A stretch of DNA of 64,000 bases. Origin: Gammaproteobacteria bacterium (GTDB taxonomy: Bacteria > Pseudomonadota > Gammaproteobacteria > Pseudomonadales > Azotimanducaceae). A program made the position numbers and the translations under genes. The stretch spans positions 1-64,000 of the forward strand of contig JAPOTJ010000085.1 in NCBI GenBank assembly GCA_026709225.1, read 5' to 3'. Shown here one piece after another: positions 2,695-64,000 of the stretch (its first letter is position 1; each line of letters starts with the position of its first letter). The notes beneath the pieces are model-generated. The model was not told the DNA's origin, searched no databases, and worked only from the letters and a program-made list of their open reading frames with translations.

Positions 2695-2706
2695 AGACCT
2701 CTCCAA

Positions 2707-3501
2707 TTACCGACCCTTGAATTCTGGTTTTTCGCCATCCATGAAGCCTCGCACCGCCGACCGGTGATCCTCGCTGAAGAGCGTAAACACCTCCATGCCC
2801 CAGTGCGCCTCAACGAGGCCCTCTATCTGGCGCTTCAACAGCATGTTGACGCTACGCTTGGTGGCATTGAGCGCCATGGACGGGCCGTTCGCCAATTTCT
2901 CGGCGAGCGCATCGACGAAGGCATCAAGCTCGTCAGCAGGCACGACTTTGCTGATCAGGCCCATTTGCTCCGCCTCTTCGCCGGTCAAGGCTTCGCCGGT
3001 CAGCAGATGCCATTTCGCCTTGGCAAAGCCGATATTCAGCGGCCACAGATAGGAGCCGCCATCGCCGGCGGAGATGCCCATCACGACATGAGGATCGGCT
3101 ATTTTTGCGTGGGGCACAGCGATGCTTAGGTCGCTCAATAGCGCGACAGTTGCGCCCACGCCAAAAGTATCGCCGTTGATTTTGGCGATGATGACCTTGT
3201 CGAGGTTGATCATCCCGTAGGCGATGAGGTACGTGTAGGGGCTAATCGCTTTTGCCAGATAGGCATTGGCATCGTCCATGTTTTCAGCCACGAGCTGCAA
3301 ATCTCCGCCGGCCGAGAACGCCCGCCCTCGACCAGTGATCACGACCACATTCACCTCATGGTCCTGAGCGATATCGGGAAATATCGTCATCAGTTCGTCA
3401 TGGATTCCCTGACCGATGGCGTTGAGCGGCGGGTTGTCCAAGGTCATGGTCAACACCTTGCCTCGGCGCGCCAACTTAAGATGTTGGTATTTTTCGTACA
3501 T
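2707..3501 (-). CDS. Enoyl-CoA hydratase/isomerase (crotonase family)
   Basis: A 264-residue standard-length crotonase. The motif GRGRAFSAGGDLQLV (about residues 57-71) is the first oxyanion loop, and INGDTFGVGATVALLSDLSIAV (about 104-125) is the second, here with GVGAT in place of the common GGG. This suggests a specialised member rather than a generic beta-oxidation hydratase. The ATG at 3501 is the first start in the frame. It is the promoter-proximal gene of a leftward operon with a second crotonase, an OYE reductase, an NTF2-like protein and an acyl-CoA dehydrogenase. It differs clearly in sequence from the neighbouring crotonase, so the two probably act on different intermediates. Confidence 0.87.
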   Translation of the reverse strand: MYEKYQHLKLARRGKVLTMTLDNPPLNAIGQGIHDELMTIFPDIAQDHEVNVVVITGRGRAFSAGGDLQLVAENMDDANAYLAKAISPYTYLIAYGMINLDKVIIAKINGDTFGVGATVALLSDLSIAVPHAKIADPHVVMGISAGDGGSYLWPLNIGFAKAKWHLLTGEALTGEEAEQMGLISKVVPADELDAFVDALAEKLANGPSMALNATKRSVNMLLKRQIEGLVEAHWGMEVFTLFSEDHRSAVRGFMDGEKPEFKGR

Positions 3502-45019: not shown

Positions 45020-46138
45020 ATGGTCAACAAGAAACACCATACATTTGCATCCCCACTATCGTCCGCCGAGCCACCGGAACCAGACGGACTAGACGAGAGC
45101 GAGCCAATCGAGTTGGATGACTACCCATTAGACAGCTTAATGATTAGGACGGACAAGCGTTCAGCATTTGAGGTATGCCGTCGAATAGACAGTCGGGCGT
45201 ACATCCTCGATCCAGATTTTCAGCGCGATTTCATATGGGATGAGGGCAAGCAATGCAAGCTCATTGAATCTGCCATTATGCGCATTCCTCTTCCTGTCTT
45301 TTACTTGGCCGAGACAACAGAGGGCAAGAATGTGGTTGTCGACGGCTTACAACGTCTTTCCACTTTCCACCGATTCCTAAAAAACAAACTGCGACTAAAG
45401 GGTCTGGAGTACGCCAAAACCCTCAACGGAAAGCGCTTTGACGATCTGAGTCCGAAACTTCGCAACCGTATTGAAGACACAAGCCTAACCCTGTACCTGA
45501 TAGATAGCCAGGTGCCGGAGCAGGCCAAGCTGGACATTTTTGAGCGCGTCAATAGTGGTCAGCCATTGACAAAACAGCAGATGCGGAACTGTCTGTATCT
45601 TGGCGAAGCAACCCGATGGCTTGCGAACATGGCGAAGTCAGAGCAGTTTAAGTTGGCAACGAACGAGGGCCTGAACTGGAGAACAATGCGTGACAGAGAG
45701 TGCATCAACCGTTTCCTCGCTTTCCACGAGAACGGACTCAACGGATACACAGGCAATATGGACAACTTTCTGCGTGACGTGCTTGCAGAAAAACAAGCGG
45801 CGGATGATGCCTACTGGCAGGACATAACCCTTAAGTTCAAGCTCAGCATGGAGATCAGTAGGCGTATCTTTAGAGGCGATGCTTTTCGCAAACCGCGAGA
45901 CGAGAATGAACGCCGAAGTGTTATTAACGTAGCCCTGTTTGATGTCTTTTCGGTATTGTTCGCCAAGTATGGCGACCGTATTCAGCCGCAGTACGATGAA
46001 GCAATTCGACAGGGGTTAGCATCCCTTGTTGAACAAAACGACTACTTTGACGCTATTTCTTTGGCTACCAATGGCGTCCAGAAGGTTACGCTCCGATTCG
46101 AGCGCACTGAGCAGATGCTGAGAAATGTACTTCAATGA
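45020..46138 (+). CDS. DUF262 (GmrSD-type N-terminal) protein
   Basis: A 372-residue protein. The DUF262 domain shows PDFQRDFIWDEGKQCKLIES (about residues 73-93) and VVDGLQRLSTFHRF (about 107-120), the family's D-G-x-Q-R-L nucleotide/DNA-binding core. The rest is mostly helical without a known nuclease motif; the DUF1524 H-N-H domain of full GmrSD enzymes is missing. It overlaps the next gene by 4 bp (ATGA). Many DUF262 proteins act in phage defence, often with a partner. It may sense or process modified DNA, which is inference. Confidence 0.85.
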   Translation: MVNKKHHTFASPLSSAEPPEPDGLDESEPIELDDYPLDSLMIRTDKRSAFEVCRRIDSRAYILDPDFQRDFIWDEGKQCKLIESAIMRIPLPVFYLAETTEGKNVVVDGLQRLSTFHRFLKNKLRLKGLEYAKTLNGKRFDDLSPKLRNRIEDTSLTLYLIDSQVPEQAKLDIFERVNSGQPLTKQQMRNCLYLGEATRWLANMAKSEQFKLATNEGLNWRTMRDRECINRFLAFHENGLNGYTGNMDNFLRDVLAEKQAADDAYWQDITLKFKLSMEISRRIFRGDAFRKPRDENERRSVINVALFDVFSVLFAKYGDRIQPQYDEAIRQGLASLVEQNDYFDAISLATNGVQKVTLRFERTEQMLRNVLQ

Positions 46139-47289
46139 CCATTGACTTCCTTTCCTTGCGAGATTTCAAATGCCATGTCGCATTGGATATACAGTTGGCA
46201 CCCTTTACAGTCCTGACAGGGTTGAACTCTTCAGGAAAATCGAGTGTCTGTCACGCCTTGGCACTGCTGGCACAGAGCTTTCGAGAGCCAGGGCGTCAAT
46301 CGGGTAATGAACTCTTGTTGAATGGGGATCTTGTCCGACTTGGAACTTTGGGAGACATTCAGAATCAAACGACGGACAATCAGTTTTTTGAGGTCTCTTT
46401 GCGTGATGAGACATCAGAGGTTGCTTGGCAATTCGCCGGCGACCGACGAAACTCAAAAGCAGTGTTGCACAACGCTGAAAGCCGCACGCTGAATGGAACA
46501 GGAGAAAAGGTATTCTCGGATGTTTCGCTTGACGGGAATGGCGAACACTTTGTCGTGGATATTTTGCGGAATCTTGAGTTTTTGACAACGCTTCGAAGTG
46601 ACCCCGCAGAAATCATCTCAACAATCGGAAGCGATTTCAATAACCGGATTGGTCCGCTGGGGAAGGGTGCTGTCCCAATCCTGTACCTCAACGACCAAAC
46701 GCACGTCTCAGAATCGCTTCGTATCGGCAATGTGCCGCCAACTCTCCCTCGACAGGTCGAAGCTTGGATGCGGCATTTCTTCCCCGGATTCGCTATGGAA
46801 ATTCAGCCCGTGGACAGCGCGATGGACCATGTGACGCTGCGCATTCGCACTGAATCTTCGGGGGAGTTCCACCTTCCGTCTAATGTTGGCTATGGACCTT
46901 ACTATTTGCTGCCCGTTGTGGTTGCAGCACTGACCCGGACACCGGGGCAGTTGCTCATGCTCGACAGTCCGGAAGCTCACCTGCACCCGTCATGTCAGAA
47001 TGAGGTTGCCAAGTTTCTGGGCTTGGTTGCCGCATCGGGTGTGCAGGTTCTTGTTGAGACACATAGCGACCACTTTGTGAACGGCACTCGGATTGCCGTC
47101 TACGAAAAGAAGATTGCTGCCGAGAATGTCATCCTTCACTACTTCGGAGGGCTTTTGGAGGATGGGGATGCGCACCGACACAGCACAATCTCGATTGATA
47201 GCGAAGGTTTGCTGGACCACTGGCCTTCGGGTTTCTGTGACCAATACGAAACTGACCTTTCGAGCCTGACAAAATGGAGCAGGACGTGA
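46135..47289 (+). CDS. DUF3696-type ABC ATPase (AAA family)
   Basis: A 384-residue SMC/OLD-like ATPase. The sequence DFLSLRDFKCHVALDIQLAP leads to Walker A GLNSSGKSS (about residues 29-37). Walker B is LLMLDSPEAHLHP (about 277-289), then the switch histidine VETHSDHFVNG (about 309), and the C-terminal DUF3696-like segment. This group (COG4938-like) occurs in defence operons. The gene overlaps DUF262 upstream by 4 bp and the next gene by 16 bp, so the three are translationally coupled and one system. Confidence 0.87.
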   Translation: MTIDFLSLRDFKCHVALDIQLAPFTVLTGLNSSGKSSVCHALALLAQSFREPGRQSGNELLLNGDLVRLGTLGDIQNQTTDNQFFEVSLRDETSEVAWQFAGDRRNSKAVLHNAESRTLNGTGEKVFSDVSLDGNGEHFVVDILRNLEFLTTLRSDPAEIISTIGSDFNNRIGPLGKGAVPILYLNDQTHVSESLRIGNVPPTLPRQVEAWMRHFFPGFAMEIQPVDSAMDHVTLRIRTESSGEFHLPSNVGYGPYYLLPVVVAALTRTPGQLLMLDSPEAHLHPSCQNEVAKFLGLVAASGVQVLVETHSDHFVNGTRIAVYEKKIAAENVILHYFGGLLEDGDAHRHSTISIDSEGLLDHWPSGFCDQYETDLSSLTKWSRT

Positions 47290-48266
47290 CACCGTCCCTC
47301 TATGTCAACGAACACTCGTTTCACGGTCAATTTGCTTCTCGCGAGGATACCATCGCCGCTATTCACCGCCTCTGGATACTGAATAGGGTGTGCCGGGAAT
47401 ACTCAGCGCAGTGCCTGTGCTCTCGCGAGCTTTTGGGTTTGCGTTCTGCGTTGTCCGACACAACCTTGCGAGAAGTCGTAGTCCAATACCCCAACCCCGA
47501 TACTCGGAAGCTCGTATTGAATTGGCTCGATAAACACGGGCCGTTCTGGGACGCAAATCGGCGGCATGACGCAGACGATTGGTATTTTGCGGCTCATGGC
47601 AGTGAAGAACTCCTGGCCACAGGCTCCGCACTAGCCGAATGTGCCCGTCAGGTACTGGCAGAAGAGAATGCGGCGCTTTTGAGTGCAACTCCCTCTGATT
47701 TCACTTACACACCTGTTCAGGCAGGTATTCTCAACGACGATGGTACGAGAGACCAGTGCGAGCTTTCCAATCATTGGTCTGAACCGCCGCTGAGGCAGTA
47801 TCTTGAAAATACGATCCGCTTGGGCAGTTGGCTGGAACTACGCGATCATGCAAAGCAACGCTTCGCCAACCTCGTATTTGCGGCGGATACACTCGAACCG
47901 ATGATGAAATCCCCATTTTCGTTGGCACTGTGTCAGCGAATCACTTCGCTCCTTGCAAATCTTGATCAACTGAGCGGTGAGATGGATGCTCGGACGGGAG
48001 CATTGAGCCCAGCTGGAGAGATACTCCGGCAGTCCTTCTTTGAGGGGCGCAACGCTCTTTTCTCTGATTCCTCGGATTCGGAAAAGGCGGCATTCAAGTC
48101 GGCTCTAACATTTCGCTGCCCCGTCAATCAAGATATGCGGCTTTTTTCTTGGCACGGAAAAGCGAGAGGAACCGATCAGTATCGCGTTCACTTCGGCTGG
48201 CCCAAATCGAACCCCGCTCGCGGGTTGCCAATAGTATATATCGGCCCGAAAATTACCAAGCGCTGA
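47274..48266 (+). CDS. Unknown protein, third gene of DUF262-ATPase operon
   Basis: A 330-residue protein I do not recognise. It begins MEQDVTPSLYVNEHSFHGQF and is predicted to be mixed alpha/beta with no signal peptide or membrane segment. A conserved-looking middle (PDTRKLVLNWLDKHGPFWD, DADDWYFAAHGSEELLATG) and a C-terminal YRVHFGWPKSNP and GLPIVYIGPKITKR stand out. No nuclease, HNH, TOPRIM, TIR or Toll-like motif is visible. The gene overlaps the ATPase by 16 bp, implying tight coupling. As the least-known part it is the likely effector. Possible counterpart in published three-gene systems with DUF262-like and DUF3696-like proteins was not checked. Confidence 0.65.
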   Translation: MEQDVTPSLYVNEHSFHGQFASREDTIAAIHRLWILNRVCREYSAQCLCSRELLGLRSALSDTTLREVVVQYPNPDTRKLVLNWLDKHGPFWDANRRHDADDWYFAAHGSEELLATGSALAECARQVLAEENAALLSATPSDFTYTPVQAGILNDDGTRDQCELSNHWSEPPLRQYLENTIRLGSWLELRDHAKQRFANLVFAADTLEPMMKSPFSLALCQRITSLLANLDQLSGEMDARTGALSPAGEILRQSFFEGRNALFSDSSDSEKAAFKSALTFRCPVNQDMRLFSWHGKARGTDQYRVHFGWPKSNPARGLPIVYIGPKITKR

Positions 48267-50625: not shown

Positions 50626-51459
50626 TCACAAGTCAATGACCGACTGCCGATCAAAAGGGATTGGGAGCACTCCAATGATGACCCATGGATTTGGAGCCAT
50701 CTGATGAAAAAGCTGCGTCGTGCCCAAGTAGAAGTGGAGATCCGACTTCATGAAGTCGTCCCAGTACTTTCGCTTCACCTTCTCCAAGGCTTCGCTATCA
50801 TTTGCAGATGATCGGCGGCAGTTCCAATACAGTGCGCCAATCTCCCAGTCGAGAATGATGAGGCGACTTTCCCGACCATCCGCATCCGTGAACCGATAAT
50901 AGAAGTTATATGGCAGTTTTGGAATTACCTTGAATATCCTATCGCGCCAAGACACTTCATCAAACAAGTCAAGTTGATTGTGTCGCGCGCGCATAGCCGC
51001 CAGCTTTCTGGCATCCCACTCTGGCTCGTCTACCTCCCAAGTGAACTCGATGATCTTCGTGGGCTTGAATATAGCTAAGGAGCGTACATTGCTCTTGGCG
51101 TCCTCAATTAGCGAGCCGATAACCCTGAATACCATTCCATCCTTAAGCAATAGGTGGCGTCGCGCTCTCCATCGCCCCGACGTACCCAAATGATCGACCT
51201 GAGTAAACCCCTCCCTGTAATCCGGACTGTAGGACTCGGGTCGGTGGTCGTTTGATCGTCGAACCAGTTTGCACTCAACCCAATCGTACTTCTTATATTG
51301 TTCCTCAGACTCGAGACCTCGAAAGGGTACTGGGTAGATGCGCACCCAAGAACCATCCTCTCGCAGACCCGCTGTACAAACGGTTTCGCCGTACTTGGCT
51401 GAAAGCGTCGGATAGGTTTTGACTGTGATGAGAATGCGCTCAAGAGCCTCACCGGTCAT
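50626..51459 (-). CDS. Unknown protein, partner of DUF488 gene
   Basis: A 277-residue protein I do not recognise by name. It starts MTGEALERILITVKTYPTLS and continues ETVCTAGLREDGSWVRIYP with a likely beta-rich N-terminus, then YDWVECKLVRRSNDHRPES. No catalytic motif is evident. Its start overlaps the DUF488 stop by 4 bp (ATGA), so the two are co-translated, and its stop is 16 bp before the AmpG-like gene. Similar pairs occur near defence genes. Its role in the Ssp locus is speculative. Confidence 0.6.
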   Translation of the reverse strand: MTGEALERILITVKTYPTLSAKYGETVCTAGLREDGSWVRIYPVPFRGLESEEQYKKYDWVECKLVRRSNDHRPESYSPDYREGFTQVDHLGTSGRWRARRHLLLKDGMVFRVIGSLIEDAKSNVRSLAIFKPTKIIEFTWEVDEPEWDARKLAAMRARHNQLDLFDEVSWRDRIFKVIPKLPYNFYYRFTDADGRESRLIILDWEIGALYWNCRRSSANDSEALEKVKRKYWDDFMKSDLHFYLGTTQLFHQMAPNPWVIIGVLPIPFDRQSVIDL

Positions 51460-52349
51460 AGGTTCACCACGTCAAATGGGTGGTTTCGCCGATCACTTTC
51501 GGCCTCACCGAGAATTTCCCGGCTCGCCTTCGCAACTTGCGCCGCAACTCGATGTCGATGGCACTGCGTCGCGTGTCGCTCAAAGCACGTCAGCGCCACA
51601 CGACGACCTGTCAGCACCATATCGCGTATGCCTGTGATTGCTGCTGACTCTCTCACCAAGATAGTTGCCTCATAGTCGGAGAATAAAGCGTCTCGGTCAT
51701 CTTGCGATACGATCTGCCGCCTGTTGGCAGAATCAATGCCGAGTTCGGGCAGGTGCTCATATCCGATCCCGACATCTCCACAGGCCGATGAAAGTGCTCG
51801 CTTCGAAAACCCGAATTTGCGACTAATCGCGTTGCGCCGAACATCCACAAGCATGGACACGCTTGAAGAAAGAAGCTGATTGAGGTATTCCTCCAAGCTC
51901 TTGCCCTCATACCCAATAGTCATGAGCTTCGCGCCGCCCTGAGAAGCGTGCGAGGCGGCATCAATACAAATGGCTCGTCGTTCAACTTCCATCTTCAAAG
52001 GCTCGCCTCTCAGGTGACTAAAGCCGGAAAAGATCGATGGGTCGAACTCAGCGGCGTGAGCTACAGCGAGCTCGCGGCCAGATTGAGTCAAATGCCACTC
52101 AGTCTGACGCTGCTCCACGAGTCCATGGCGCTCCATGCGATGGCAGTCTTGAGCGCAGGAATAAGAATACGCACCGGAACCAAGCGGCACAAAATAGTAG
52201 GCGGGTTTGGCTACGGTTCCGCGACCTGCCGCTTCAAGTCCGTAGAGGAATACGAGGCTTTGAAGGTCTGCATCTTCCAATCTACCGCCGACCGACGCGA
52301 CGAGAGAGATCAGGAGTCGTTGATGATGAGAAACGGATCTTGCGTTCAT
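51456..52349 (-). CDS. DUF488 protein with N-terminal winged-helix-like region
   Basis: A 297-residue protein. The C-terminal half (from KLMTIGYEGKSLEEYLNQLL, about residue 140) is DUF488, with the signature CFERHATQCHRHRVA (about 255-269). The N-terminal half (MNARSVSHHQRLLISLVASV, then FLYGLEAAG, CHRMERHGLVEQ) resembles a winged-helix sensor domain. DUF488 has unknown enzymatic function, possibly nucleic-acid related. The gene is divergent from the cysteine desulfurase with 246 bp between and is followed by an unknown partner. It may be a regulator or component of the phosphorothioation locus. Confidence 0.75.
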   Translation of the reverse strand: MNARSVSHHQRLLISLVASVGGRLEDADLQSLVFLYGLEAAGRGTVAKPAYYFVPLGSGAYSYSCAQDCHRMERHGLVEQRQTEWHLTQSGRELAVAHAAEFDPSIFSGFSHLRGEPLKMEVERRAICIDAASHASQGGAKLMTIGYEGKSLEEYLNQLLSSSVSMLVDVRRNAISRKFGFSKRALSSACGDVGIGYEHLPELGIDSANRRQIVSQDDRDALFSDYEATILVRESAAITGIRDMVLTGRRVALTCFERHATQCHRHRVAAQVAKASREILGEAESDRRNHPFDVVNL

Positions 52350-52595: not shown

Positions 52596-53828
52596 ATGAC
52601 TACAAATACTAAAATTGTAAGCCCGTTGACTGACCAGAGGATGAGAGCGCTTGCTGGCAGTCTCCAGCTTGGGAACTCGGAACATGCGGAGGTTTATTTG
52701 GACTCTAATGCGACCGTCAAGCCCTTCGAATCGGTCGTAGAAGCAGTCGTAGACATCATGCGTGCTTCTTGGGGCAATCCTTCAAGCGGGCACTTTGCAG
52801 GACTAGCGGCGCGCCATGTACTTGAACGAGCAAGAGAAGCAGTCGCGAAACTGTTGGTCGGGGTTGACCCGGACGACGTAATTCTTACGTCAGGAGGCAC
52901 CGAAAGCTGCAACACCGTGCTAGCCAGTGCTAGCGCCGATGCTACTGTAATCATCTCCGCAGTGGAACACCCTGCGAACTCGGTTCCTGCTGAACTGGCG
53001 GCAACACGCGGAGCCAACCTGATTGTTGTACCAGTAGACGCAAACGGACTTACGGATCCAGAGGCTTTTCGCCGTGCAGTAGTAAAGACGAGAACATCTA
53101 AGTTATATGTCTCGGTGCAATGGGCAAGTGGCGAGACAGGAGTGATTCAGCCAATAGGTGAAATTGCCAGCGCGGTTCACGAATCTCGGCCCGATGCCTT
53201 GCTGCATGTTGATGCGGCTCAAGCTGTGGGACGCATTCCGACTCCCGTTCCGGCAACAACGGGCTTAACGGCGTTTTCCTTCTCCGGTCATAAATTACAT
53301 GGACCGCAGGGTATAGGTGTGCTAGCGTATAGCGGACGCAAGAATATTCCAAGCATGGCGCTGATCGCAGGCGGAGGACAAGAACGAAATCGACGATCTG
53401 GCACCCAAAACGTCTCGGGAGCGGCCGGTCTGGCGGCAGCACTTGAGGAGCGTGCAAAGCGATTTGACGAAGCTGTGGAGAGCATGGGTAGGTTGCGCGA
53501 TGCGTTTGAATCGCGTGTGACCGAACTGACTCCCAATGCAACTGTTAACGGCATCAATGCACCGAGAACGCGGAACACATCAAACATATGCTTTCGCGGA
53601 ACTGACGGCATATCTCTAGTTGCGAAACTAGACGCACTTGGGATTAGATGTTCTCAGGGATCGGCATGTTCGTCAGGACATCCTGCTCCCTCCCATGTAC
53701 TTCATGCAATGGGCATAAGTGAAGAGGATGCCTATTCGAGTTTGCGATTCTCCTTCTCTGTACTCAATTCAATGGAAGATGTTGAGACGAGTTTGGACAC
53801 TATCGAGCATGTTCTCAATAGTAGTTGA
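52596..53828 (+). CDS. sspA: Cysteine desulfurase (SspA/DndA/IscS-like)
   Basis: A 410-residue class V PLP enzyme. The PLP lysine is in SFSGHKLHGPQG (about residue 228), GGGQERNRRSGTQNV is the usual phosphate region, and CSQGSACSSGHPA carries the persulfide-forming cysteine (about 355). It takes sulfur from L-cysteine and passes it to the PAPS-reductase-like protein at 58254. The ATG at 52596 is chosen over an upstream in-frame ATG (52491) lacking homology; 52641 is another. It heads the rightward operon with helicase, GHKL ATPase and PLD genes. Placement opposite sspBCD genes supports the SspA name. Confidence 0.85.
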   Translation: MTTNTKIVSPLTDQRMRALAGSLQLGNSEHAEVYLDSNATVKPFESVVEAVVDIMRASWGNPSSGHFAGLAARHVLERAREAVAKLLVGVDPDDVILTSGGTESCNTVLASASADATVIISAVEHPANSVPAELAATRGANLIVVPVDANGLTDPEAFRRAVVKTRTSKLYVSVQWASGETGVIQPIGEIASAVHESRPDALLHVDAAQAVGRIPTPVPATTGLTAFSFSGHKLHGPQGIGVLAYSGRKNIPSMALIAGGGQERNRRSGTQNVSGAAGLAAALEERAKRFDEAVESMGRLRDAFESRVTELTPNATVNGINAPRTRNTSNICFRGTDGISLVAKLDALGIRCSQGSACSSGHPAPSHVLHAMGISEEDAYSSLRFSFSVLNSMEDVETSLDTIEHVLNSS

Positions 53829-53899
53829 AGTCGCAAGGAATATAACGAATAGCCATCATCTTCTGCGATACTTACCTACTCCATGCTCCAATAGATCTA

Positions 53900-55150
53900 A
53901 TGACAACGTTCAAGTTGATTGAACCTTCCTATTCGCTACGCCCTTATCAAAAGCGCGCCGTAGATGATATTCTTACCGAACTCGAAACACATGGACGGGC
54001 TTTGTTGCATGCCCCCACGGGCGCAGGCAAGACCCGAATGGCTATGTCTGTTGTGTCCCTGCACCTTCGGAAAAACGCGCCCACCATGGTGCTTTGGCTC
54101 GCACCGACCAAGGAGTTGGTGGTGCAAGCAGCGGAGGACTTCAGCGTTGCTTGGAAATTCCAAGGGGACGTTGATGCAGCAGTCATTCAGTGGCGCGGAG
54201 GAGGTGAGCGTTTTTCAGACGGCACCACTATCAGGCGCAATACGGTCATTGTCGCGGGAATCCAGATGGCTGGTCAGTCGGTCAGTTCCGACCCGTGGAT
54301 CGAACAGTCGCTGCTCGACAGGGTCAGCTTGGTAGTGTTCGACGAGGCACATCATTCGGTAGCCCCCTCGTTTCGTAGCCTTGTGGAGAGCATCTTGGGT
54401 GGTGCTGGCGTTGCAGAGCGCAAACTCTTGGGTCTCAGCGCGACACCTGGCCGGGCGAATACTGACGAAACCAAAAGGCTGGTCGAAATGTACGAAGGGC
54501 GCAAGGTTAGCGTGGGAGACGGAGGCAACCCGGTGCGATTCTTAGTTGACAACGGATATCTTGCCCGCGCAGCCATTAAGACGCACGGGTTTAGTGGTGC
54601 GCCAGCTCCCGATGGGCAAGGGGCGGAATACTCAGATCGTGCGCTTGCGCGCTTGGGCGAGGATAGAGAGCGCAACCAGCAGATCATCTTACTCGTACAA
54701 GAACTTTTCGACCAAGGACACAAGCGCGTCATTGTCTTCACGCCATCCGTTGACTCCGCTGAGGAATGTGCTGCAGCCATGCGAGACCGCGGATATGCGT
54801 ATGCGCATGCGGTCTCTGGGAAAACCCCTATGGAAGCCCGAGACCACTACACACGCACATTCCAAAAGTCCGTGGCCTCGATCCCTTGCCACCAAGCACT
54901 GTTCAACTGCAACGTGCTTACTGCGGGGTTCGACGCCCCGGAAACCAGCGCTGCGGTGATCGGCCTACCAACAAAGAGCGCCGTTCGACTTCAGCAGATG
55001 GTCGGCAGGGCGTTGAGGGGCCCAAAATCGGGCGGAACAGAAAAAGCCATCATTCATATGATTGTGGATGAGTCCTACAGCGAGTTCGCTGATTTGGCTG
55101 ACATGTTTTGTCAGTGGGAGAGACTTTGGGAGGAAGGCATCCGCACATGA
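53900..55150 (+). CDS. Superfamily 2 DEAD/DEAH helicase, Ssp-associated
   Basis: A 416-residue SF2 helicase. Motif Q/I region: RPYQKRAVDDIL then APTGAGKTRMA (Walker A, about residue 40-50); motif II FDEAHHS (about 148); motif III GLSATP (about 176); C-terminal lobe with FTPSVDSAEECAAAMRDRGY and LQQMVGRALRGPKSGG (motif VI, about 368). It is short, with no extra nuclease domain. It lies 71 bp downstream of the desulfurase and 46 bp before the GHKL gene. In SspABCD systems with a three-gene restriction part (SspFGH) a helicase is expected; assignment of the letter was not checked. Confidence 0.88.
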   Translation: MTTFKLIEPSYSLRPYQKRAVDDILTELETHGRALLHAPTGAGKTRMAMSVVSLHLRKNAPTMVLWLAPTKELVVQAAEDFSVAWKFQGDVDAAVIQWRGGGERFSDGTTIRRNTVIVAGIQMAGQSVSSDPWIEQSLLDRVSLVVFDEAHHSVAPSFRSLVESILGGAGVAERKLLGLSATPGRANTDETKRLVEMYEGRKVSVGDGGNPVRFLVDNGYLARAAIKTHGFSGAPAPDGQGAEYSDRALARLGEDRERNQQIILLVQELFDQGHKRVIVFTPSVDSAEECAAAMRDRGYAYAHAVSGKTPMEARDHYTRTFQKSVASIPCHQALFNCNVLTAGFDAPETSAAVIGLPTKSAVRLQQMVGRALRGPKSGGTEKAIIHMIVDESYSEFADLADMFCQWERLWEEGIRT

Positions 55151-55196
55151 CCGGCACGACTAAAAATTAACTTTCTCATCGAAGAAGGACAAGAAA

Positions 55197-57131
55197 ATGA
55201 CTGATCATATTTTCCCACCAAGCTTAGCTCTCAAGGCGCTTAGTTTTGGCCCATACCGTAATGCGGCCTACGCAATCTCTGAACTCATAGACAACAGTGC
55301 GGATGCAGAGGCCAAATTCATCGCTGTAGCACTCATCGTCGATGGGAGCAATCGTCCCTCGGAAATCGCGGTTCTAGACAATGGAATCGGCATGGACAGG
55401 GAATTGTTGCGACGTTGCGTTCAGTACGGTTACGGGGCAGCAGGCAACGACAGTGATCCCAGCGAAGGCGCAAAGTCGAGAGCTGGAAAACGCCTTGGAA
55501 AATTCGGAGTGGGGCTTGTCGCTGCCTCTTTCAGCCAGTGCTTGGACTTGCAGGTGATGTCTTGGCAGCAAGGGGAAAGCTCAGCCGGTGTGCTGCCATC
55601 GACTCGACTACGCCTGTCTGATGAAAGTGAAATCAACGAGAATTTGCTACCGGATACCTTTGACGAGAAAATTCCAGATTGGGCGAATTTGGCTTTTGAC
55701 GGCCTGCCTGAGCCAATTTCAGCGATGAAGAGCGGAACGCTGGTTGTCTGGAGGGACGTGTCAACAACACATCGGAGGCGAGCAAAAACGCTGCGAAAGC
55801 ACATCTGCGATCTGTGTGGACGGATTCACCGCGAATTTATTCGAAGTAACAAGCTGCGGATTCTAGTGAATGTTTTTGACAAGTCCTCAAGCAAGATTAT
55901 TGACAGGGCATGGGCAGAACCTGTGGACCCCACGTTTCTTACCAACTGGGACGAAGATGACTTGAAGAAGGATGGCTTTGTTGGCAACCAAACGTTGTTT
56001 ACCCCGTACACAGGACACCCCGATGACACAGGAGAAGATATTGACGGTGAATACCAACCCCAGATGAAAACGGTCAAGGGGCCAGATGGAGAGATGGTTG
56101 GGCACTATTTACTTACCTCTTCGTACCGTAGGCCTCACGTTGTGGAGGATGAAAAACTCACAAAATACTATAAGGACCCGGGTCTAGCACCCTTCGGCAA
56201 ACTCGCGAATAATCTTCGAGGGGTTTCGCTGATGCGGTCCGGTCGCGAAATCGAACTCGACCCGGCATGGCTTAGGGGCGACCGTACCGTAGACCGTTGG
56301 GTGTCCGTAAGCATTGACTTTGATCCCGATCTAGATGACGTATTTGGCGTTTCTAACGACAAACAGCAAGTCCGAGGCCTTTCCGATCTCGCTTCTATCC
56401 CGCTAAAGGAAATCAAAGAACGCTTGACGGAGTTACAGGAGGAAAACAATCCGGAAGAGGATTGGAGGAACATTCAGTGTTTGGAAGTCGCCAAGCAGAT
56501 CAAGGAAAGGCTTGCCGACATGCAAAGGATCGTCGGAAAACAAAGAGAGAAGACCCGAAGCAGAGCTGGAAGACCTGGCTCCAACGATCCTTACACCCCG
56601 CCCGTGGAAGAGCTGACACAAGACGGAGGCGCACTGTCCACAAACGGACGTCAAATACCGATGGACGGCACGAAGCCGTCTTCGGACCCGGAGAAAACCA
56701 CCGAGGTGTATGGAAATACTCTGGCGGGTGGAAAGCCTGCCCGAGAAGTGAGACCCTCGGAGATAATAGAAAATGATCTTAAGCTGGATTACGTACTAAA
56801 CCCCCATGGACCAGCTACCAAGATGTTCGGCTTCTCATTAGGGCCTGGGCATTTGGTAGTGCAGTTCAACGAAAAACACCCTTTAAGCGAGACAATGGCA
56901 AGGCTTTTGGCCTTCGAAGAGGGTGATGACGATGAGGGCGACAACGAAAATGTAAGCTATCAGCTCGGTGTAGGAGATGCCCTGCGCGTGATTCGCGGAC
57001 TGGTTGCATCTTTCGTTCGTGCGCAGGCTGAAGCCGACAACCTAGGAAAATTCGACGAAGTGCGAGCCTTGGACGTGAGCCTTGCCCTTTGGAGCGAAAA
57101 GGCTACGCATGTGCTGGAATCGGAGGAATGA
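55197..57131 (+). CDS. GHKL-type ATPase (MutL/Hsp90-like), Ssp-associated
   Basis: A 644-residue protein with an N-terminal GHKL ATP-binding fold: FGPYRNAAYAISELIDNSAD (N-box E...DN, about residues 16-35), VLDNGIGM (G1, about 62-69) and GKRLGKFGVGL (G2, about 100-110). The middle and C-terminal parts are largely helical and charged without a known motif. Its stop overlaps the PLD gene start (ATGA), so these are translated as a pair. Such ATPases can act as conformational switches in defence complexes. It is likely one of the SspFGH-like restriction components. Confidence 0.85.
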   Translation: MTDHIFPPSLALKALSFGPYRNAAYAISELIDNSADAEAKFIAVALIVDGSNRPSEIAVLDNGIGMDRELLRRCVQYGYGAAGNDSDPSEGAKSRAGKRLGKFGVGLVAASFSQCLDLQVMSWQQGESSAGVLPSTRLRLSDESEINENLLPDTFDEKIPDWANLAFDGLPEPISAMKSGTLVVWRDVSTTHRRRAKTLRKHICDLCGRIHREFIRSNKLRILVNVFDKSSSKIIDRAWAEPVDPTFLTNWDEDDLKKDGFVGNQTLFTPYTGHPDDTGEDIDGEYQPQMKTVKGPDGEMVGHYLLTSSYRRPHVVEDEKLTKYYKDPGLAPFGKLANNLRGVSLMRSGREIELDPAWLRGDRTVDRWVSVSIDFDPDLDDVFGVSNDKQQVRGLSDLASIPLKEIKERLTELQEENNPEEDWRNIQCLEVAKQIKERLADMQRIVGKQREKTRSRAGRPGSNDPYTPPVEELTQDGGALSTNGRQIPMDGTKPSSDPEKTTEVYGNTLAGGKPAREVRPSEIIENDLKLDYVLNPHGPATKMFGFSLGPGHLVVQFNEKHPLSETMARLLAFEEGDDDEGDNENVSYQLGVGDALRVIRGLVASFVRAQAEADNLGKFDEVRALDVSLALWSEKATHVLESEE

Positions 57132-58015
57132 TTGATACGCCACTGCGACAAATCCAAGAGTTGTTCGCAAAGGCGAGGAAGCGAGTCATCATCATTTCGG
57201 CCTTTGTAGGATCAGAAGCGTTGGATTTGCTGCTCAAAGCGGCTAAACAAGTATCCGATCGCAGTGTTTACGCTAGGTGGGACTGGCATGACATTGCATC
57301 GGGTGCGTCCGACTGGCGGGCATGGGATGTAGCTCACCGACATAATGCTCCCATGTTTGCCTGCCCCGGGCTTCATGCCAAAGCTTACATCGGCGACAAT
57401 AAAGCGCTCATCGGGTCAGCGAACGCCACGACCCCCGGGTTAAGCGGACTTCCCGACGGCAATCTTGAACTGCTTGTTCCAGAAAGCGCGGACACAGTTC
57501 AAGTTGAGCAAGTTGTTCGTCGCATCAAAGCAATCTCATCCTTGGCCCGCCCGATGGGAGATGACATCACACGCTATGAACCACAACCTAGTGATCGCAG
57601 CGATGACGCGTACTCAATCTGGCTTCCCAAATCAGCCCCTGACCGTTTCCTGAGTGCAATGACCGGACACGCATCCCACGATGCGGAGTCCGCACAAGAT
57701 AAGACTGCGCTAAGGCTCGGCGAGAGTGTCTCTGGACGGACCGAAATTCGCAAGACAGTGTTTGATACGACAGTTTTTCGGGTCGTGCGATCTGCATTTG
57801 AGGGCAGAGTTCTTCCTATGGACATCGCGGAGCTTCGAACTCTTCTTGCAAGTCAAGCGTCTCCGACAGTTCAGGAATTGCCAGAAGAACAACTGCGCCG
57901 TCTATGTCAGTGGCTGGGTGAGTTTGGCGAGAACACCGTGATGGGACCTTCTACTGATCCATCGTCGGCACAATTAAAGCCTGGTCGGCTTCTTTCATCA
58001 GAGCACTTTGCCTAA
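57128..58015 (+). CDS. Phospholipase D-like nuclease, Ssp-associated
   Basis: A 295-residue protein with a single HKD motif: HAKAYIGDNKALIGSAN (about residue 88-104), the H-x-K-x4-D pattern followed by the G-S-x-N tail. Most PLD nucleases with one HKD motif dimerise. The N-terminal part RKRVIIISAFVGSEALDLLL is the usual first strand. The ATG at 57128 is preceded by GGAGGA and overlaps the ATPase stop (ATGA). It likely nicks or cuts DNA in the restriction step directed at DNA lacking phosphorothioates. It ends the rightward operon and converges with sspD-like gene, 238 bp apart. Confidence 0.87.
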   Translation: MIDTPLRQIQELFAKARKRVIIISAFVGSEALDLLLKAAKQVSDRSVYARWDWHDIASGASDWRAWDVAHRHNAPMFACPGLHAKAYIGDNKALIGSANATTPGLSGLPDGNLELLVPESADTVQVEQVVRRIKAISSLARPMGDDITRYEPQPSDRSDDAYSIWLPKSAPDRFLSAMTGHASHDAESAQDKTALRLGESVSGRTEIRKTVFDTTVFRVVRSAFEGRVLPMDIAELRTLLASQASPTVQELPEEQLRRLCQWLGEFGENTVMGPSTDPSSAQLKPGRLLSSEHFA

Positions 58016-58253
58016 TGGCTCCTGTCGGCCTCCTAGCCGTGTTGGGTATCTGATTACAATGTGCTCTGTAAGCGTGCAAAGTCAACTTAGTGGTACGGCG
58101 GGAACTTCATAACAGTGGGTCCCACCCCGAGGCAACATGCGCCCCCACTAGAAATACGTATAAAAGCAAAGCTCCATCGCTTGTCGTCTCAACGCTGACT
58201 CCACATACAGCTTCTCGCCGTGGCAGAATTGAGATAAATACGACTTCCCTAAA

Positions 58254-59153
58254 TTAAATTGAACAAACTGCGCACGCATGATCTGCCCTATCATCATCAC
58301 TTAAGTGATCAGAAATCAAGTCAGCTTGCCATGTCGATTGTCTATCGGAAGCGATCATTTCTGCGCCTGCTTGCATACTGCTTGCCTCCTCTTCCAGTTC
58401 GGCTAATGACATCCTGTCCATCCATGTATACATTCGCCCTGTGTTTGGATCGAAGGTTTCGTTCTCGTAACGCATCGCTTTTTCGAACAAGTCTGGATGA
58501 TGCTCTCTCAAGCCAAGCCACTCGCTTTTGCGTTGAAAGAAACAGAAGTAACAGCCCGACCGAGAGCGCCAGGAATAGTATTTGGGCAAGCCGGTTGTCT
58601 CTTCAAGTAAGGACACAATATCCTGCCTCACTAGGCCATCCGACATAAACGGATAGACCGCAGTGACGTTCGTCAAAGAACTAAGCTTGGAGCGAGAAGA
58701 TTCGTCGGCGCGAATACCCACATAGTTGACGGTCGGAGCGTCTCCCACGAACAAACCCATGGGCTTAATCTTCATCTTGTAAGTACACCACCGCTGGTGA
58801 CGCGATGGAAGCAATCCACCATGTTCGGCCCACAGGAAATGATCAAACGGAGCGGTATTGTCGTCCTCCACAAGGGAGAAGGGAGACAGGCGGACTATCG
58901 GTTTATCGAGATATTTTTCCAAGATTTCGAGATATTCGTAAACCTCCGGCAACTCCTTTCCCGTATCAGTGAAGAAAGACTCAATTTCGGGCGCCTGCTT
59001 TGCGGTTTCGATTTCGCGCGCAGCATCGCTGCAACCAGCTTCCGCAGCAAGATCGCGAAAGTAACGCCAATCTTCGCGCTTGCGAGTCAGGTAAATCGCA
59101 AGGGCTGCTGAGTCTTTGCCCCCTGATATGCCAATAATGTGTCGTGTTCTCAT
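58254..59153 (-). CDS. sspD: PAPS-reductase-like ATP pyrophosphatase (SspD/DndC-like)
   Basis: A 299-residue protein. The PP-loop is SGGKDS (about residues 10-15). A cysteine in RWCTYKMK (about 135), and two C-x2-C pairs, SGCYFCFF (about 215) and HACAVCS at the C-terminus, could bind an Fe-S cluster. DndC and SspD use ATP to activate DNA for sulfur insertion. Its start overlaps the ATPase stop (59150-59153, ATGA), so it is third in the leftward operon DUF4007-ATPase-this gene, matching sspBCD order. Sulfur would come from the desulfurase at 52596. Confidence 0.85.
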   Translation of the reverse strand: MRTRHIIGISGGKDSAALAIYLTRKREDWRYFRDLAAEAGCSDAAREIETAKQAPEIESFFTDTGKELPEVYEYLEILEKYLDKPIVRLSPFSLVEDDNTAPFDHFLWAEHGGLLPSRHQRWCTYKMKIKPMGLFVGDAPTVNYVGIRADESSRSKLSSLTNVTAVYPFMSDGLVRQDIVSLLEETTGLPKYYSWRSRSGCYFCFFQRKSEWLGLREHHPDLFEKAMRYENETFDPNTGRMYTWMDRMSLAELEEEASSMQAGAEMIASDRQSTWQADLISDHLSDDDRADHACAVCSI

Positions 59154-62100
59154 ACGTCCTCCCTCAATGAACGAGCCAAATCAGTGACAACCGTCAGTCG
59201 AAAGTCCTCGGGAACCTCATCAACGATTGAAGAGAGTCTTCGAACAAAATCCTCAATATCATTTCGAGCACTAGCAACACGCTGATTAGGCCAAAATACG
59301 GCAAACGGAGCACTACTTTGATGAACTTGCCCGTTCGCCACAAGCTGACCTGCACTCTCCAGACCCAACACACTTTGTCGGAGGAGAAACTCCGCTTGAG
59401 TTGCATGCGAATCGTTCCAAGACGTGATCGGCAAGGTGATTCCCAAGCCTTCGCTCACAACGCCAGCAAGCCACCTGCGATCATCCGAAACAGACTCATT
59501 GAGAACTTGGGAAAGAAACTCATGATAGCCGTGGTACATCTGCCTTTTCGACATCAAACACATCGCGAATTTAGTGCAATGGGCCCTCGCAGCTTCTAAA
59601 CTTTCACACGCGAGGGTGTCAACTGTCACATCTTCAAGCCGCTGGAGAAGTGCCGCATCGGCTCCTTCAAGCTCGGCTTGGACCCGCTTGACGCTTGAAA
59701 GAAAACTGCGAAGGTCTATTCCTGCAGATGGTGGCGACGAATACCCCAACGCGCTCGGAATTGTATGAAACAGCATGTCTCCGGGCGATTTTGCTACGCT
59801 GAGGGCGCGTCGGAATGCCTGAGCGCTTTCGGAGACGGTCGTTGTGTGGCGAGCATATGCTGAAAGAGCAGAGTGGCGAATCAGCAGATCGCGTGCGATA
59901 GCGACTGGCGCATGGTTCGCTTTCGCCCCACCTTTGTCGATGAGCGCCTTTCGGTAGGCAGCCAAAAAGGATTCGCTTATGGGTATTTTGGTTGTTGCAG
60001 TCACACTGAAACGGCTAGGTGCCTTTAACATTCTCAAAAGTGTCTGCGGACCCCACCGGGGAACGTATTGGTGGTCTTCGTATACCTCGTGGCTATCCCT
60101 GTCAGCAACTACAACCAGAATGCATAGCAATATGGCAGGAACACGATTAACCCCGAAAGGGGGCTTACTCAGTATAGTAACTACTTCATCAATACTAAGG
60201 CCAGAGCCATGCCCAGACTCTAAGTAGTGTTTACGAATCTCGTTTATGACAGGCTGGTAGGCTTGCGGTAGATTCTTCTCGTCGAGTTGAAGATTCCAAG
60301 TTTGATTTTGCGACGTATGTAAACCGCTCTGCCTAAGAAGGGATTGATAAATGATCCGTTCCGCCGGGAACTTTGTAATACCGAGGTTTTCTTTGTCAAT
60401 ATCTGTGTGCAGATGCTCAAGAAGCTTCCGAAGCGCAGCGGTCACCTGTCCGCTTACCTTGTCTTTGTTGATCAAATCGTTGTGTAGGGGAAATGCCCGA
60501 GGATATGCTCTATCCATAGCCGCCGAAATTGCTTTCTGCAAACTCGGATACCGAGCTTCCTCCACCTGCCACTGCAAATCCGACTCCAACAATTCATCAC
60601 AAAGCGCTGAAACTCGCGCTTTGTGAAAGTCCTGACGAAGCCTCATTTCTTTTTTTGCCACTTCGTCATGTATAAGACTGGCATCATCTGTCAGCAGGCT
60701 TTGGATTGCGCTCACTTCCTTGAGATGTGGCTCCAACAACCGGCTATTCGTGATACCGGTGACATCAATGGCAGCAGAATCTGGTGGCTTCTGGCCGCCA
60801 ACGTAAATGAGTATGCGTGGTCTTCCCTCTGCATCCGGTGGTTCGTCTTCGGTTCGCAACCAATAAACCTTCGCGCCTCTGCGATTACCTGTTTGAATGA
60901 AGTGGCTATGTGCAAGTATTGTCCTTGCCGCTACTCGGTTCATTTCCGCTGCCATGTCTAGATTCGCGGCAGCTATTTCTTGATCAACCTTTCGAGCAAC
61001 ATCATAGTCACTACCATCCCAAATTGCGTATTCATCGCGGTAACGTCGATAGACCACCAAAGAACTTTCTGTCAACTCCGCAATGCACTTTTCAAATGGA
61101 AACCCTGTGGGAAGACAGGCTAGAGCAGACACCTTATCCGCCGAAAGCCCTCTGCCCGCCACAAAATTCAACATAGCAATAATTTGGAGAAGTGTTCGAG
61201 CATCTGCGGTGACCCGGTCGCCCACCCTTTCTCGCGCTGCGTGGATTGCCGCAAACCGCATCGCCAAAGCAGGATTCGATGGAACCAGAAGCGCGTCTCC
61301 AAAAAAGTGCTCGAATAGGGAGTGCGGGTATATCCAGTCATCGCCCGCCCTGCGATGTTGAGCGTCAAACCCTGTTGCCAAGTCTGACGTTAACCAGCCA
61401 ACGACTGTACGATCCTGTTGTCCCAAGAGTCTTGCAAGACGTGACAGGAGAACAATGGTCATCGGATGCAATGGACGACAATTGCTCGCGGCCGCCATAA
61501 ATCGTGAGTCTTGGAGAAGCTTTGGGCTGGATCCGGCAGGCTTGGAAAATTTCAATTTCTCGGCATCGCCTTGATGCAAAGACTGAAGTGCCCGTGCGAT
61601 GATATGAGCCGTGTCGGTCTCCGTATTATGAAGTATCGTCTCACGGAATCTCCCCCTCACCTTCTCCCATTCAACTCGCCTATCGCCGAAAAATCTGCGC
61701 GAATAGTGCTCCAAACCGAAGTGCTGAATAATAAGAAGTGATAATGGGGATTCAGTGCGGCCTGTCAACTCTGCCAAGCTCTGTAAGAAATGAAAATCTG
61801 CATCGCTTGCCGTCGCAGCCATATGATCGAGATGACGTCCAAATTCATCTATCACAAGCAGTACGCCAGCCAAGCCTGTTCGACGAGCTTCCTGCGTGGT
61901 TCGGACAACTAATCGGAGCGCCTGTTCACTTGTCACATTGTCAGAATGCAGGTCGGCAAAGGGTTTCAATGTCGATTCCCCTAGCGACATGCCCATGCTC
62001 TGGGCAAAAACACTCATGGCACATGTCACTCGGTATGCTAGAGATTCGGAGGCTCCAACAACGGTAATTGGCGCTAGGCCTCCTGATTCAAGCAACTTGG

Positions 62101-62371
62101 CAACGACGGACTCTTCCGGGAACGAATCTCGCGCTCTGTATGGTACAAAAAAAGAAGTTGGGCAAGATAACTGGTTGAGTGCAAATGCTGCGAGTGAGGA
62201 TTTTCCGGCCCCATAAGGACCAAGCAATGCATGCGCCTCGCCACCTTTGAGAGCAGCGTTCGCGAGGCTATCTATGAACTCAATAGCTAGGCCGGTCGGA
62301 TGGTACGATTTTGCACAGACAGTTAGGTCTTCTGCACTCTCCAAGTTGACTGACAGGCGTATAGCTTTCAT
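59150..62371 (-). CDS. sspC: Large P-loop ATPase (SspC-like)
   Basis: A 1073-residue protein. Walker A is GPYGAGKSSLA (about residues 52-62), with GVLLVIDEFGRHL as Walker B (about 175-187). The C-terminal two thirds are helical with no motif I can name. Large ATPases with this start and the order after a DUF4007 gene match the SspC component of the single-stranded phosphorothioation system. It probably powers DNA remodelling during sulfur insertion. It overlaps both neighbours by 4 bp, so the three proteins are made in fixed ratio. Length and lack of other motifs leave some doubt about the exact family. Confidence 0.8.
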   Translation of the reverse strand: MKAIRLSVNLESAEDLTVCAKSYHPTGLAIEFIDSLANAALKGGEAHALLGPYGAGKSSLAAFALNQLSCPTSFFVPYRARDSFPEESVVAKLLESGGLAPITVVGASESLAYRVTCAMSVFAQSMGMSLGESTLKPFADLHSDNVTSEQALRLVVRTTQEARRTGLAGVLLVIDEFGRHLDHMAATASDADFHFLQSLAELTGRTESPLSLLIIQHFGLEHYSRRFFGDRRVEWEKVRGRFRETILHNTETDTAHIIARALQSLHQGDAEKLKFSKPAGSSPKLLQDSRFMAAASNCRPLHPMTIVLLSRLARLLGQQDRTVVGWLTSDLATGFDAQHRRAGDDWIYPHSLFEHFFGDALLVPSNPALAMRFAAIHAARERVGDRVTADARTLLQIIAMLNFVAGRGLSADKVSALACLPTGFPFEKCIAELTESSLVVYRRYRDEYAIWDGSDYDVARKVDQEIAAANLDMAAEMNRVAARTILAHSHFIQTGNRRGAKVYWLRTEDEPPDAEGRPRILIYVGGQKPPDSAAIDVTGITNSRLLEPHLKEVSAIQSLLTDDASLIHDEVAKKEMRLRQDFHKARVSALCDELLESDLQWQVEEARYPSLQKAISAAMDRAYPRAFPLHNDLINKDKVSGQVTAALRKLLEHLHTDIDKENLGITKFPAERIIYQSLLRQSGLHTSQNQTWNLQLDEKNLPQAYQPVINEIRKHYLESGHGSGLSIDEVVTILSKPPFGVNRVPAILLCILVVVADRDSHEVYEDHQYVPRWGPQTLLRMLKAPSRFSVTATTKIPISESFLAAYRKALIDKGGAKANHAPVAIARDLLIRHSALSAYARHTTTVSESAQAFRRALSVAKSPGDMLFHTIPSALGYSSPPSAGIDLRSFLSSVKRVQAELEGADAALLQRLEDVTVDTLACESLEAARAHCTKFAMCLMSKRQMYHGYHEFLSQVLNESVSDDRRWLAGVVSEGLGITLPITSWNDSHATQAEFLLRQSVLGLESAGQLVANGQVHQSSAPFAVFWPNQRVASARNDIEDFVRRLSSIVDEVPEDFRLTVVTDLARSLREDV

Positions 62372-63282
62372 TCGAGCACGCGCCCGAAAATATGAGCATC
62401 AATCGCCTTTGTGTCGCTCGACGTGCATAGCGAGTCAAAGCCTGATTTAGCAGTTACCATAGCGTCCTCTCCGGGCATTGTTGACAACGACAATTCCTTG
62501 CAGCCAGACTTATCCAACCGCTCCACCGCAGCAAAAAATCCATCCTTGCTGAATCCAAATATGGAACCTGGTGATGCTTGAGCAGCGGGCGTGATGTAGA
62601 GGTCGGAGAGGGCGGAGGACGCTGTTCCTCGGCTCGCTAGCGTTCCCAGTAGCGAATACAACAAAATTTTATCCGAAACGTGAGGGCGTTCATGGTGCCA
62701 AGTCCTCTTGTAAGCAGAATGTCCCTCAATCCGTGTTGCCGTCAGCATCCTCAACTGCGAGAAAAAACGATCATCGTGATCATCCGCGTGGCTTTCCGGC
62801 GGAACTAAGTGCATCCGGAGCACTGGTTCCATATCTCCACGAAGAGTGCCATCTGCGTAGAAGGCATTGTTTGAACACAAAAAATCCTTGAATCCTGATA
62901 TCGCATTCTGCAAAGAAAAAATATCAACGTGAAGATAGTTGAAAACCCAAGCGGCCGCGGAAAAATTTCGAAAATTAGACGTAATGAGCCAATGCAGGAG
63001 CGCAACTGTCTCGCCACGTTCCAAGTAGGGGTCCATAGTAAGAAATATGCGCTTAGCCATATCAGAGATACGTCCATCATGGTGAAGCAACATGGCTGTC
63101 CGCGCCCACGCTTTCAACGCCTTGGCCATATTCTTGCCAATGCCCAATTGACACGCCACGGTCTCCAAGTTCGATGGAACCTGCCCCTCCTTGCCGTAGC
63201 AATCGATCATCCGAGGAAGCCATGAAAGGCGGAGAGGGAATCCACCAAAATTCCCTACGATATTATTGACTGAATGAGCCAT
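62368..63282 (-). CDS. sspB: DUF4007 protein (SspB-like)
   Basis: A 304-residue DUF4007-family protein. GNFGGFPLRLSWLPRMIDCYG near the N-terminus, PSNLETVACQLGIGKNMAKA (a winged-helix-like segment, about residues 36-55) and the RYF-like repeats of helices fit the family. SspB proteins of phosphorothioation systems are DUF4007 members reported to nick DNA as the first step of modification. It is the first gene of the leftward operon; its stop overlaps the ATPase start. Promoter lies in 63283-63479. Confidence 0.8.
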   Translation of the reverse strand: MAHSVNNIVGNFGGFPLRLSWLPRMIDCYGKEGQVPSNLETVACQLGIGKNMAKALKAWARTAMLLHHDGRISDMAKRIFLTMDPYLERGETVALLHWLITSNFRNFSAAAWVFNYLHVDIFSLQNAISGFKDFLCSNNAFYADGTLRGDMEPVLRMHLVPPESHADDHDDRFFSQLRMLTATRIEGHSAYKRTWHHERPHVSDKILLYSLLGTLASRGTASSALSDLYITPAAQASPGSIFGFSKDGFFAAVERLDKSGCKELSLSTMPGEDAMVTAKSGFDSLCTSSDTKAIDAHIFGRVLE

Positions 63283-63479: not shown

Positions 63480-64000
63480 CTAGCTGTTCCGTCGTCGTTG
63501 CTCGCGCCGCTTAAGCTTCAATCTAATCTCCTCCGGCTTTGTGTAAACTCTATTGAGCAACTCGACTGTAAAATCCAGCAAGTCTTGAGCATCTGCCATC
63601 GCGAGTGTCCCGTCATGTGCCCCTGCATTGCCGTCCTCTCGAATGCAGTTTGCGAGTTCCTGTAAATCTGATGAAAGATGCTCTTCGTCGAACAGAAATG
63701 ACAATCTATGCGCGAGGGACCTTTTGCGAACTACAGAATCTGCATGCTCATCAATAAGTGATTGTATAGCAAGCTCGATACAGAGTCGAAACATGGTCGC
63801 GGCGGCATTTGGGCACTTAGAGGTAATGCATACCGCGCCTTCTTTGAAGCAGGCATTGATATTGTCAGGTAAGTGCTTTGGAGGACGAACTTGGACAACG
63901 TCGCGGGTGCTTATGTAGCCGACGACATCGAAAAATCTGTTTATTACGCCCGGATATTGAGTCGGAGCTTTGCCAATCTGAGCATTTCTCGGATCAGAGT
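63480..64000 (-). CDS. DUF4145 protein, 5' end beyond window
   Basis: The minus-strand frame is open from the window end to a stop at 63480. In it the first ATG is only at 63794, but codons continue beyond to position 64000 with KHLPDNINACFKEGAVC and NAAATMFRLCIELAIQ, the usual core of DUF4145 (a small domain in restriction and defence proteins). The rest, MFRLCIELAIQSLIDEHAD then SSDLQELANCIREDGNAGAHDG, completes it. So the true gene is longer and partial here, with at least 173 codons visible. It lies 197 bp upstream of the DUF4007 gene in the same direction. Function unknown. Confidence 0.75.
   Translation of the reverse strand, partial: SDPRNAQIGKAPTQYPGVINRFFDVVGYISTRDVVQVRPPKHLPDNINACFKEGAVCITSKCPNAAATMFRLCIELAIQSLIDEHADSVVRKRSLAHRLSFLFDEEHLSSDLQELANCIREDGNAGAHDGTLAMADAQDLLDFTVELLNRVYTKPEEIRLKLKRREQRRRNS

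Follow-up and report, generated by a model that had tools for sequence, protein, structure and literature searches.

An SspABCD locus carrying a helicase, a MORC-like GHKL ATPase and a PLD protein as a candidate third type of Ssp restriction module

The window (the whole stretch of DNA analysed here, 64,000 nucleotides) carries genes for an SspABCD phosphorothioation (PT) cassette together with a trio of genes encoding an SF2 helicase, a MORC-like GHKL ATPase and a single-HKD PLD-family protein. We propose that the locus is probably a PT restriction-modification system whose restriction module represents a third Ssp type, with PT marks most likely blocking the trio on host DNA. The initial annotation had picked out the trio as the likely restriction part, and its recurrent, near-exclusive association with ssp genes supports that choice.

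The locus and its genes

All seven genes, each with an open frame (7/7), lie where the initial annotation had put them (Table 1), and the profile searches that it had proposed against SspA-D returned strong matches to all four families (PADLOC, Pfam). The trio sits between sspA on the plus strand and sspB-C-D on the minus strand and is read in the same direction as sspA. Partial co-translation of the trio, also suggested from the first reading, fits a 4-base overlap (ATGA) of the GHKL and PLD genes. Since sspB/C and sspC/D overlap by 4 bases too, translational coupling is plausible at all three junctions. The convergent layout had been called unusual, but it recurs in L010, L011, L032, L038 and L075; convergent arrangement of ssp genes is common.

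Table 1. Genes of the ssp locus, with positions in the window
Gene or product	Length (aa)	Position	Strand	Evidence
sspA, cysteine desulfurase	410	52596-53828	+	PADLOC SspA 2.3e-97; Pfam Aminotran_5; Cys358 in SACSSG
SF2 helicase/translocase (trio)	416	53900-55150	+	ResIII 2e-25; Walker A and DEAH intact
MORC-like GHKL ATPase (trio)	644	55197-57131	+	HATPase_c_3 3e-19; N-, G1- and G2-type motifs intact
Predicted single-HKD PLD-family nuclease (trio)	295	57128-58015	+	HKD at residues 83-90; weak PLDc_2
sspD, PP-loop (PAPS-reductase-like)		58254-59153	-	PADLOC SspD 2.6e-85
sspC, large P-loop ATPase, BrxC-like	1073	59150-62371	-	PADLOC SspC 6.6e-162; GPYGAGKSS
sspB, DUF4007 protein	304	62368-63282	-	PADLOC SspB 5.6e-37; DUF4007 9.5e-32

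SspB, SspC and SspD are recognised by profile, adjoin one another and are accompanied by the cysteine desulfurase. Catalytic motifs are intact where checked: the SspA cysteine (Cys358, with the SACSSG motif kept), the Walker A of SspC, and the SspD PP-loop (SGGKDS) with cysteines 123, 201, 204, 294 and 297, 71 of 80 conserved SspD positions being kept. Judged from these sequence features, sspA and sspBCD form an SspABCD cassette. A type 4 BREX system was considered and rejected, because SspC beats BrxC (7e-162 versus 6.5e-56) and SspD beats BrxP; profiles for PglZ and BrxL found no match among the ten genes scanned.

The helicase keeps 61 of 65 conserved positions, Walker A and DEAH included, and is without the N-terminal extension of about 100 residues that the alignment shows in most relatives. 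Against the PDB, the best match of its family profile is RadD (3.5e-42), followed by 7clg, which we take to be SauUSI, a PLD-helicase type IV enzyme; 7clg is matched by the PLD family profile as well. The GHKL ATPase keeps 68 of 83 conserved positions, including the E-L-x-D-N and G-x-F-G-x-G motifs. It combines GHKL and S5-type domains and is nearest to MORC: its family profile finds MORC2 best in the PDB (7.5e-10, over the ATPase domain), and its structural model, of moderate confidence (pLDDT 64.5), resembles SMCHD1, Hsp90 and MutL. The PLD protein alone falls below the Pfam cut-off (PLDc_2, E 8e-4). It keeps 22 of 22 conserved positions, and its motifs, H83-x-K85-x4-D90 and GSAN, are conserved throughout true PLD homologues. 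The HKD motif and the PLD fold place it with the Nuc-like PLD nucleases, and its model, also of moderate confidence (pLDDT 73.7), resembles the PLD nucleases Nuc, NucT and Zucchini. As families, PLD nucleases need no metal for cleavage and GHKL ATPases act as closing clamps; MORC-type ATPases are known in eukaryotic silencing.

The window's SspB, SspC and SspD are divergent, with nearest sequences at about 30% identity and a long branch on the SspBCD tree, and their activity and motif are therefore uncertain. The same genome holds a second sspABCD (L036, contig C66, 13000-32999), followed by a convergent SNF2 helicase, a DndB/DGQHR protein and a GIY-YIG protein, which may together make up another partner module for Ssp. 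Both the long branch and the second locus would suit a degenerate, inactive locus retained by chance, yet the open frames, the conserved positions kept in the PLD protein, helicase and SspD, and a GHKL relative with 79% identity in another genome make that very improbable. A search of genome contigs found a single near relative of the locus. In L002, the near relative, two frames share the helicase coding sequence (1999-3439), owing to sequencing error or decay.

Other defence genes lie in the window. An NsnABC operon, presumably Menshen, occupies 45020-48266 with a DUF262 protein (45020-46138), an AAA ATPase and NsnC. A PDC-M19 A/B candidate defence pair, one member with DUF488, lies at 50626-52349, divergent from sspA. 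A DUF4145 protein (L026 3481-4164) with a weak PD-T7-4 match is encoded at 63480-64000, on the strand of sspB and upstream of that gene.

Recurrence of the trio and exchange of modules

In a sample of 398 Pseudomonadota genomes, SspD was found in 11 (12 loci). A profile of the trio GHKL gave six full-length matches there (426-743 bits), 6/6 beside SspD, and the next-best match fell to 125 bits over the ATPase domain only. The hypergeometric probability of six GHKLs falling among the eleven SspD genomes is about 9e-11. A second sample, 357 genomes of one Pseudomonadota class (the class of G573), contained four full-length trio GHKLs, again all beside SspD (p about 1e-7); both p-values assume independent genomes, an assumption that related genomes violate. 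Chance linkage of the trio to ssp is ruled out by these two samples. More distant GHKL relatives in L071 and L073 had no ssp genes in view. In L072 (232-2010), a full-length trio-like GHKL lies at a contig end beside prophage tail genes, with no ssp visible.

The two samples gave 17 evaluable ssp loci, at which the partner is the trio in ten (counting the window's own locus and one that has SspE too), SspFGH in three, a PbeA-type protein in two and other neighbours in two. This count leaves out L081, which is SspD-like with no SspB or SspC near and looks prophage-borne, and L077, which ends too soon. A further six-gene cassette, sspBCD-HEL-GHKL-PLD, was seen in G185 of the Gammaproteobacteria sample.

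Plasmids (72,556 records) were surveyed with the GHKL protein as tblastn query, followed by inspection of neighbours. Helicase-GHKL-PLD genes occur with ssp genes on plasmids of Pannonibacter, Hymenobacter, Trichormus, Roseobacter, Mesorhizobium, Pleomorphomonas, Planktothrix, Geminocystis, Cyanobacterium and Treponema; the Treponema locus has no adjacent sspD, and the stretch from Cyanobacterium HL-69 yielded no ssp genes other than sspD and sspA. With the Trichormus GHKL as query at a coverage of at least 80%, 12/12 plasmid records were SspD-bearing, as read against a list of 69 SspD-bearing plasmids, and trio-type GHKLs on such plasmids span Proteobacteria, Cyanobacteria and Bacteroidota. 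For comparison, SspG was found on 33 plasmids and SspE on four (one query). On plasmids, SspFGH thus outnumbers the trio, in counts to which near-identical records from Rhizobiales and Sphingomonadales contribute much. In a viral collection, four contigs have both sspABCD and the trio.

Alternatively, the trio could be a defence or repair module in its own right, found with ssp only because both are carried in defence islands. The window is indeed such an island, given its NsnABC operon and PDC-M19 pair, and the trio often stands in its own orientation. The linkage speaks against this: SspD is adjacent in 10/10 full-length relatives of the genome samples, and 12/12 plasmid relatives are in SspD-bearing records. 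In addition, sspA shares the reading direction of the trio in our locus, and in L008 it lies directly 3' of the PLD gene. We therefore regard independence as improbable, and a role for the trio as the restriction arm of the PT system is preferred.

Distances correlate strongly within the modification genes (Mantel r 0.85-0.88, C versus B or D) and within the trio (0.69-0.79, GHKL versus helicase or PLD), but less across the modules (0.36-0.52, GHKL versus B, C or D). On a concatenated SspBCD tree, quickly built, with long branches of which the window's is the longest, the trio label is not clustered and needs at least six changes; the close sisters L043 and L044 carry FGH and the trio, respectively. 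Such a pattern of weak cross-module correlation and scattered labels is what one would expect if restriction cassettes were swapped around a common modification core, and the sequences thus indicate that the two modules, BCD and trio, exchange partners.

The nuclease itself appears to be replaceable. At L009/L021 and L018 (Agrobacterium and Aminobacter; two plasmids), the PLD protein gives way to a Cap4-like endonuclease protein, the Cap4 match being weak (E 2e-10 to 7e-10). The third gene position thus seems to hold a DNA-cutting enzyme that can be swapped. The helicase of these variant loci has lost its DEAH motif in the alignment, suggesting that translocation may not always be needed.

Comparison with known partners and related systems

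Kinship of the trio to SspFGH, raised in the initial annotation, did not hold up. The trio gave zero matches to the PADLOC models for SspE, SspF, SspG and SspH, and no PADLOC Ssp model describes it, whereas an Agrobacterium plasmid used as positive control matched SspF, SspG and SspH at 3e-237, 6e-219 and 0. Agrobacterium has trio-type genes directly beside genuine SspFGH. SspG was not found in the window's genome, in a search that had no positive control. The SspABCD-SspFGH system of Vibrio anguillarum FF-93 shares with our locus an SspBCD core and an adjoining three-gene partner, but its SspF has a Walker A and its SspH an FtsK/SpoIIIE-like C-terminus (PMC8092258), and the trio is without an FtsK part.

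The earlier remark that SspE is absent next to the locus stands: no DUF262/DUF1524 protein matching SspE lies beside the ssp genes. SspABCD-SspE shares the modification core and differs in its partner, which is a single protein of that kind. The best SspE-profile match in the window's genome has an E value of 2e-8; generic GmrSD proteins can score as high, and the match is not regarded as a genuine SspE. Two hidden SspE candidates were rejected: the DUF262 gene of the NsnABC operon, which belongs to that system, and a GmrSD fragment at the contig end (L026), which matches Orf5 and type IV enzymes best.

PbeABCD, for which the published PT partner is Dnd, likewise has PLD and SF2 helicase parts (PMC6459918, PMC10853773). 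However, PbeA is a PLD-SF2 fusion and PbeC a CxC ABC ATPase, while the trio splits PLD from SF2 and adds a GHKL protein. This system was rejected here as well, because the PbeA match (1.8e-23) is limited to the helicase stretch, compared with 1e-185 for a full-length PbeA in L039, and no PbeC was found. In L039 (10364-14805), sspABCD lies beside a PbeA-type PLD-SF2 protein, with PbeC by profile; in L078 (558-2732), it lies beside a protein that is PbeA-type by size and sequence resemblance only. DISARM, which needs DrmA, DrmB and DrmC together, was discarded on a lone weak DrmC match (2e-5) from the PLD protein.

CglI and NgoAVII (PMC4267653) and SauUSI-like enzymes (7clg) also have an SF2 ATPase and a nuclease acting together. 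The first two are methylation systems and the last a single protein, and none has a GHKL subunit. In the MORC/paraMORC restriction systems, a GHKL ATPase, an SF2 helicase and a nuclease share a single operon (PMC2292703). The recipe is therefore already known in methylation systems; the portion of PMC2292703 drawn on here describes it with DNA methylases and leaves phosphorothioation unmentioned. Pairing of the trio with phosphorothioation (GHKL, PLD, helicase or MORC with SspBCD) had no description in the open-licence literature searched.

A candidate mechanism and its meaning

The sequences show the gene content, the intact motifs, the conserved linkage, two modules that exchange partners and a third-gene nuclease that can be swapped; the biochemistry throughout, the sequence motif and the way in which PT acts on the trio are inferred. 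By analogy with their families, SspA would supply sulfur, SspD would activate and insert it, and SspB with SspC would select where host DNA is marked and drive its single-stranded PT modification. The trio would serve as the restriction arm: the SF2 protein may move along duplex DNA, the MORC-like ATPase may close as an ATP-driven clamp that gates the cut, and the PLD protein, probably as a dimer, may cleave without metal. PT marks would distinguish the cell's own DNA from foreign DNA; most likely they would block the trio on the host, as for SspFGH/DndFGH. The second sspABCD locus of the genome could supply PT marks, and it counts against this explanation.

The published partners differ in this direction. 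SspFGH damages DNA that lacks PT and is toxic in the absence of PT, while SspE needs PT (PMC8092258). Like SspE, the trio might be switched on rather than blocked by PT marks on host DNA: PbeABCD, too, is published as PT-dependent (PMC6459918), a DndB/DGQHR-family protein, a possible reader of the marks, is encoded at some trio loci, and near-exclusive linkage to ssp fits either direction. Yet the trio has no recognised PT-reading domain (neither DUF262 nor a sulfur-binding domain among its Pfam matches), and a translocase, clamp ATPase and nuclease resemble the motors of restriction-modification systems. On balance, these parts seem to favour an SspFGH-like mode, which we consider probable, over PT sensing, which we consider rather unlikely.

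In a survey of 2,678 sspBCD loci, SspFGH accompanied 7.3% and SspE 7.4% (PMC8092258). The partner of most sspBCD loci had thus been unknown, and the trio fills this gap at 10/17 of the sampled Pseudomonadota ssp loci. Taken together, our results make it likely that the trio is an undescribed third Ssp restriction class, the commonest sspBCD partner in the sampled Pseudomonadota, in which a MORC-type clamp would license an exchangeable nuclease according to PT status. The three trio genes are small enough for direct testing. If our proposal is true, MORC-type ATPases would be linked to bacterial self/non-self recognition via a mark in the DNA backbone.
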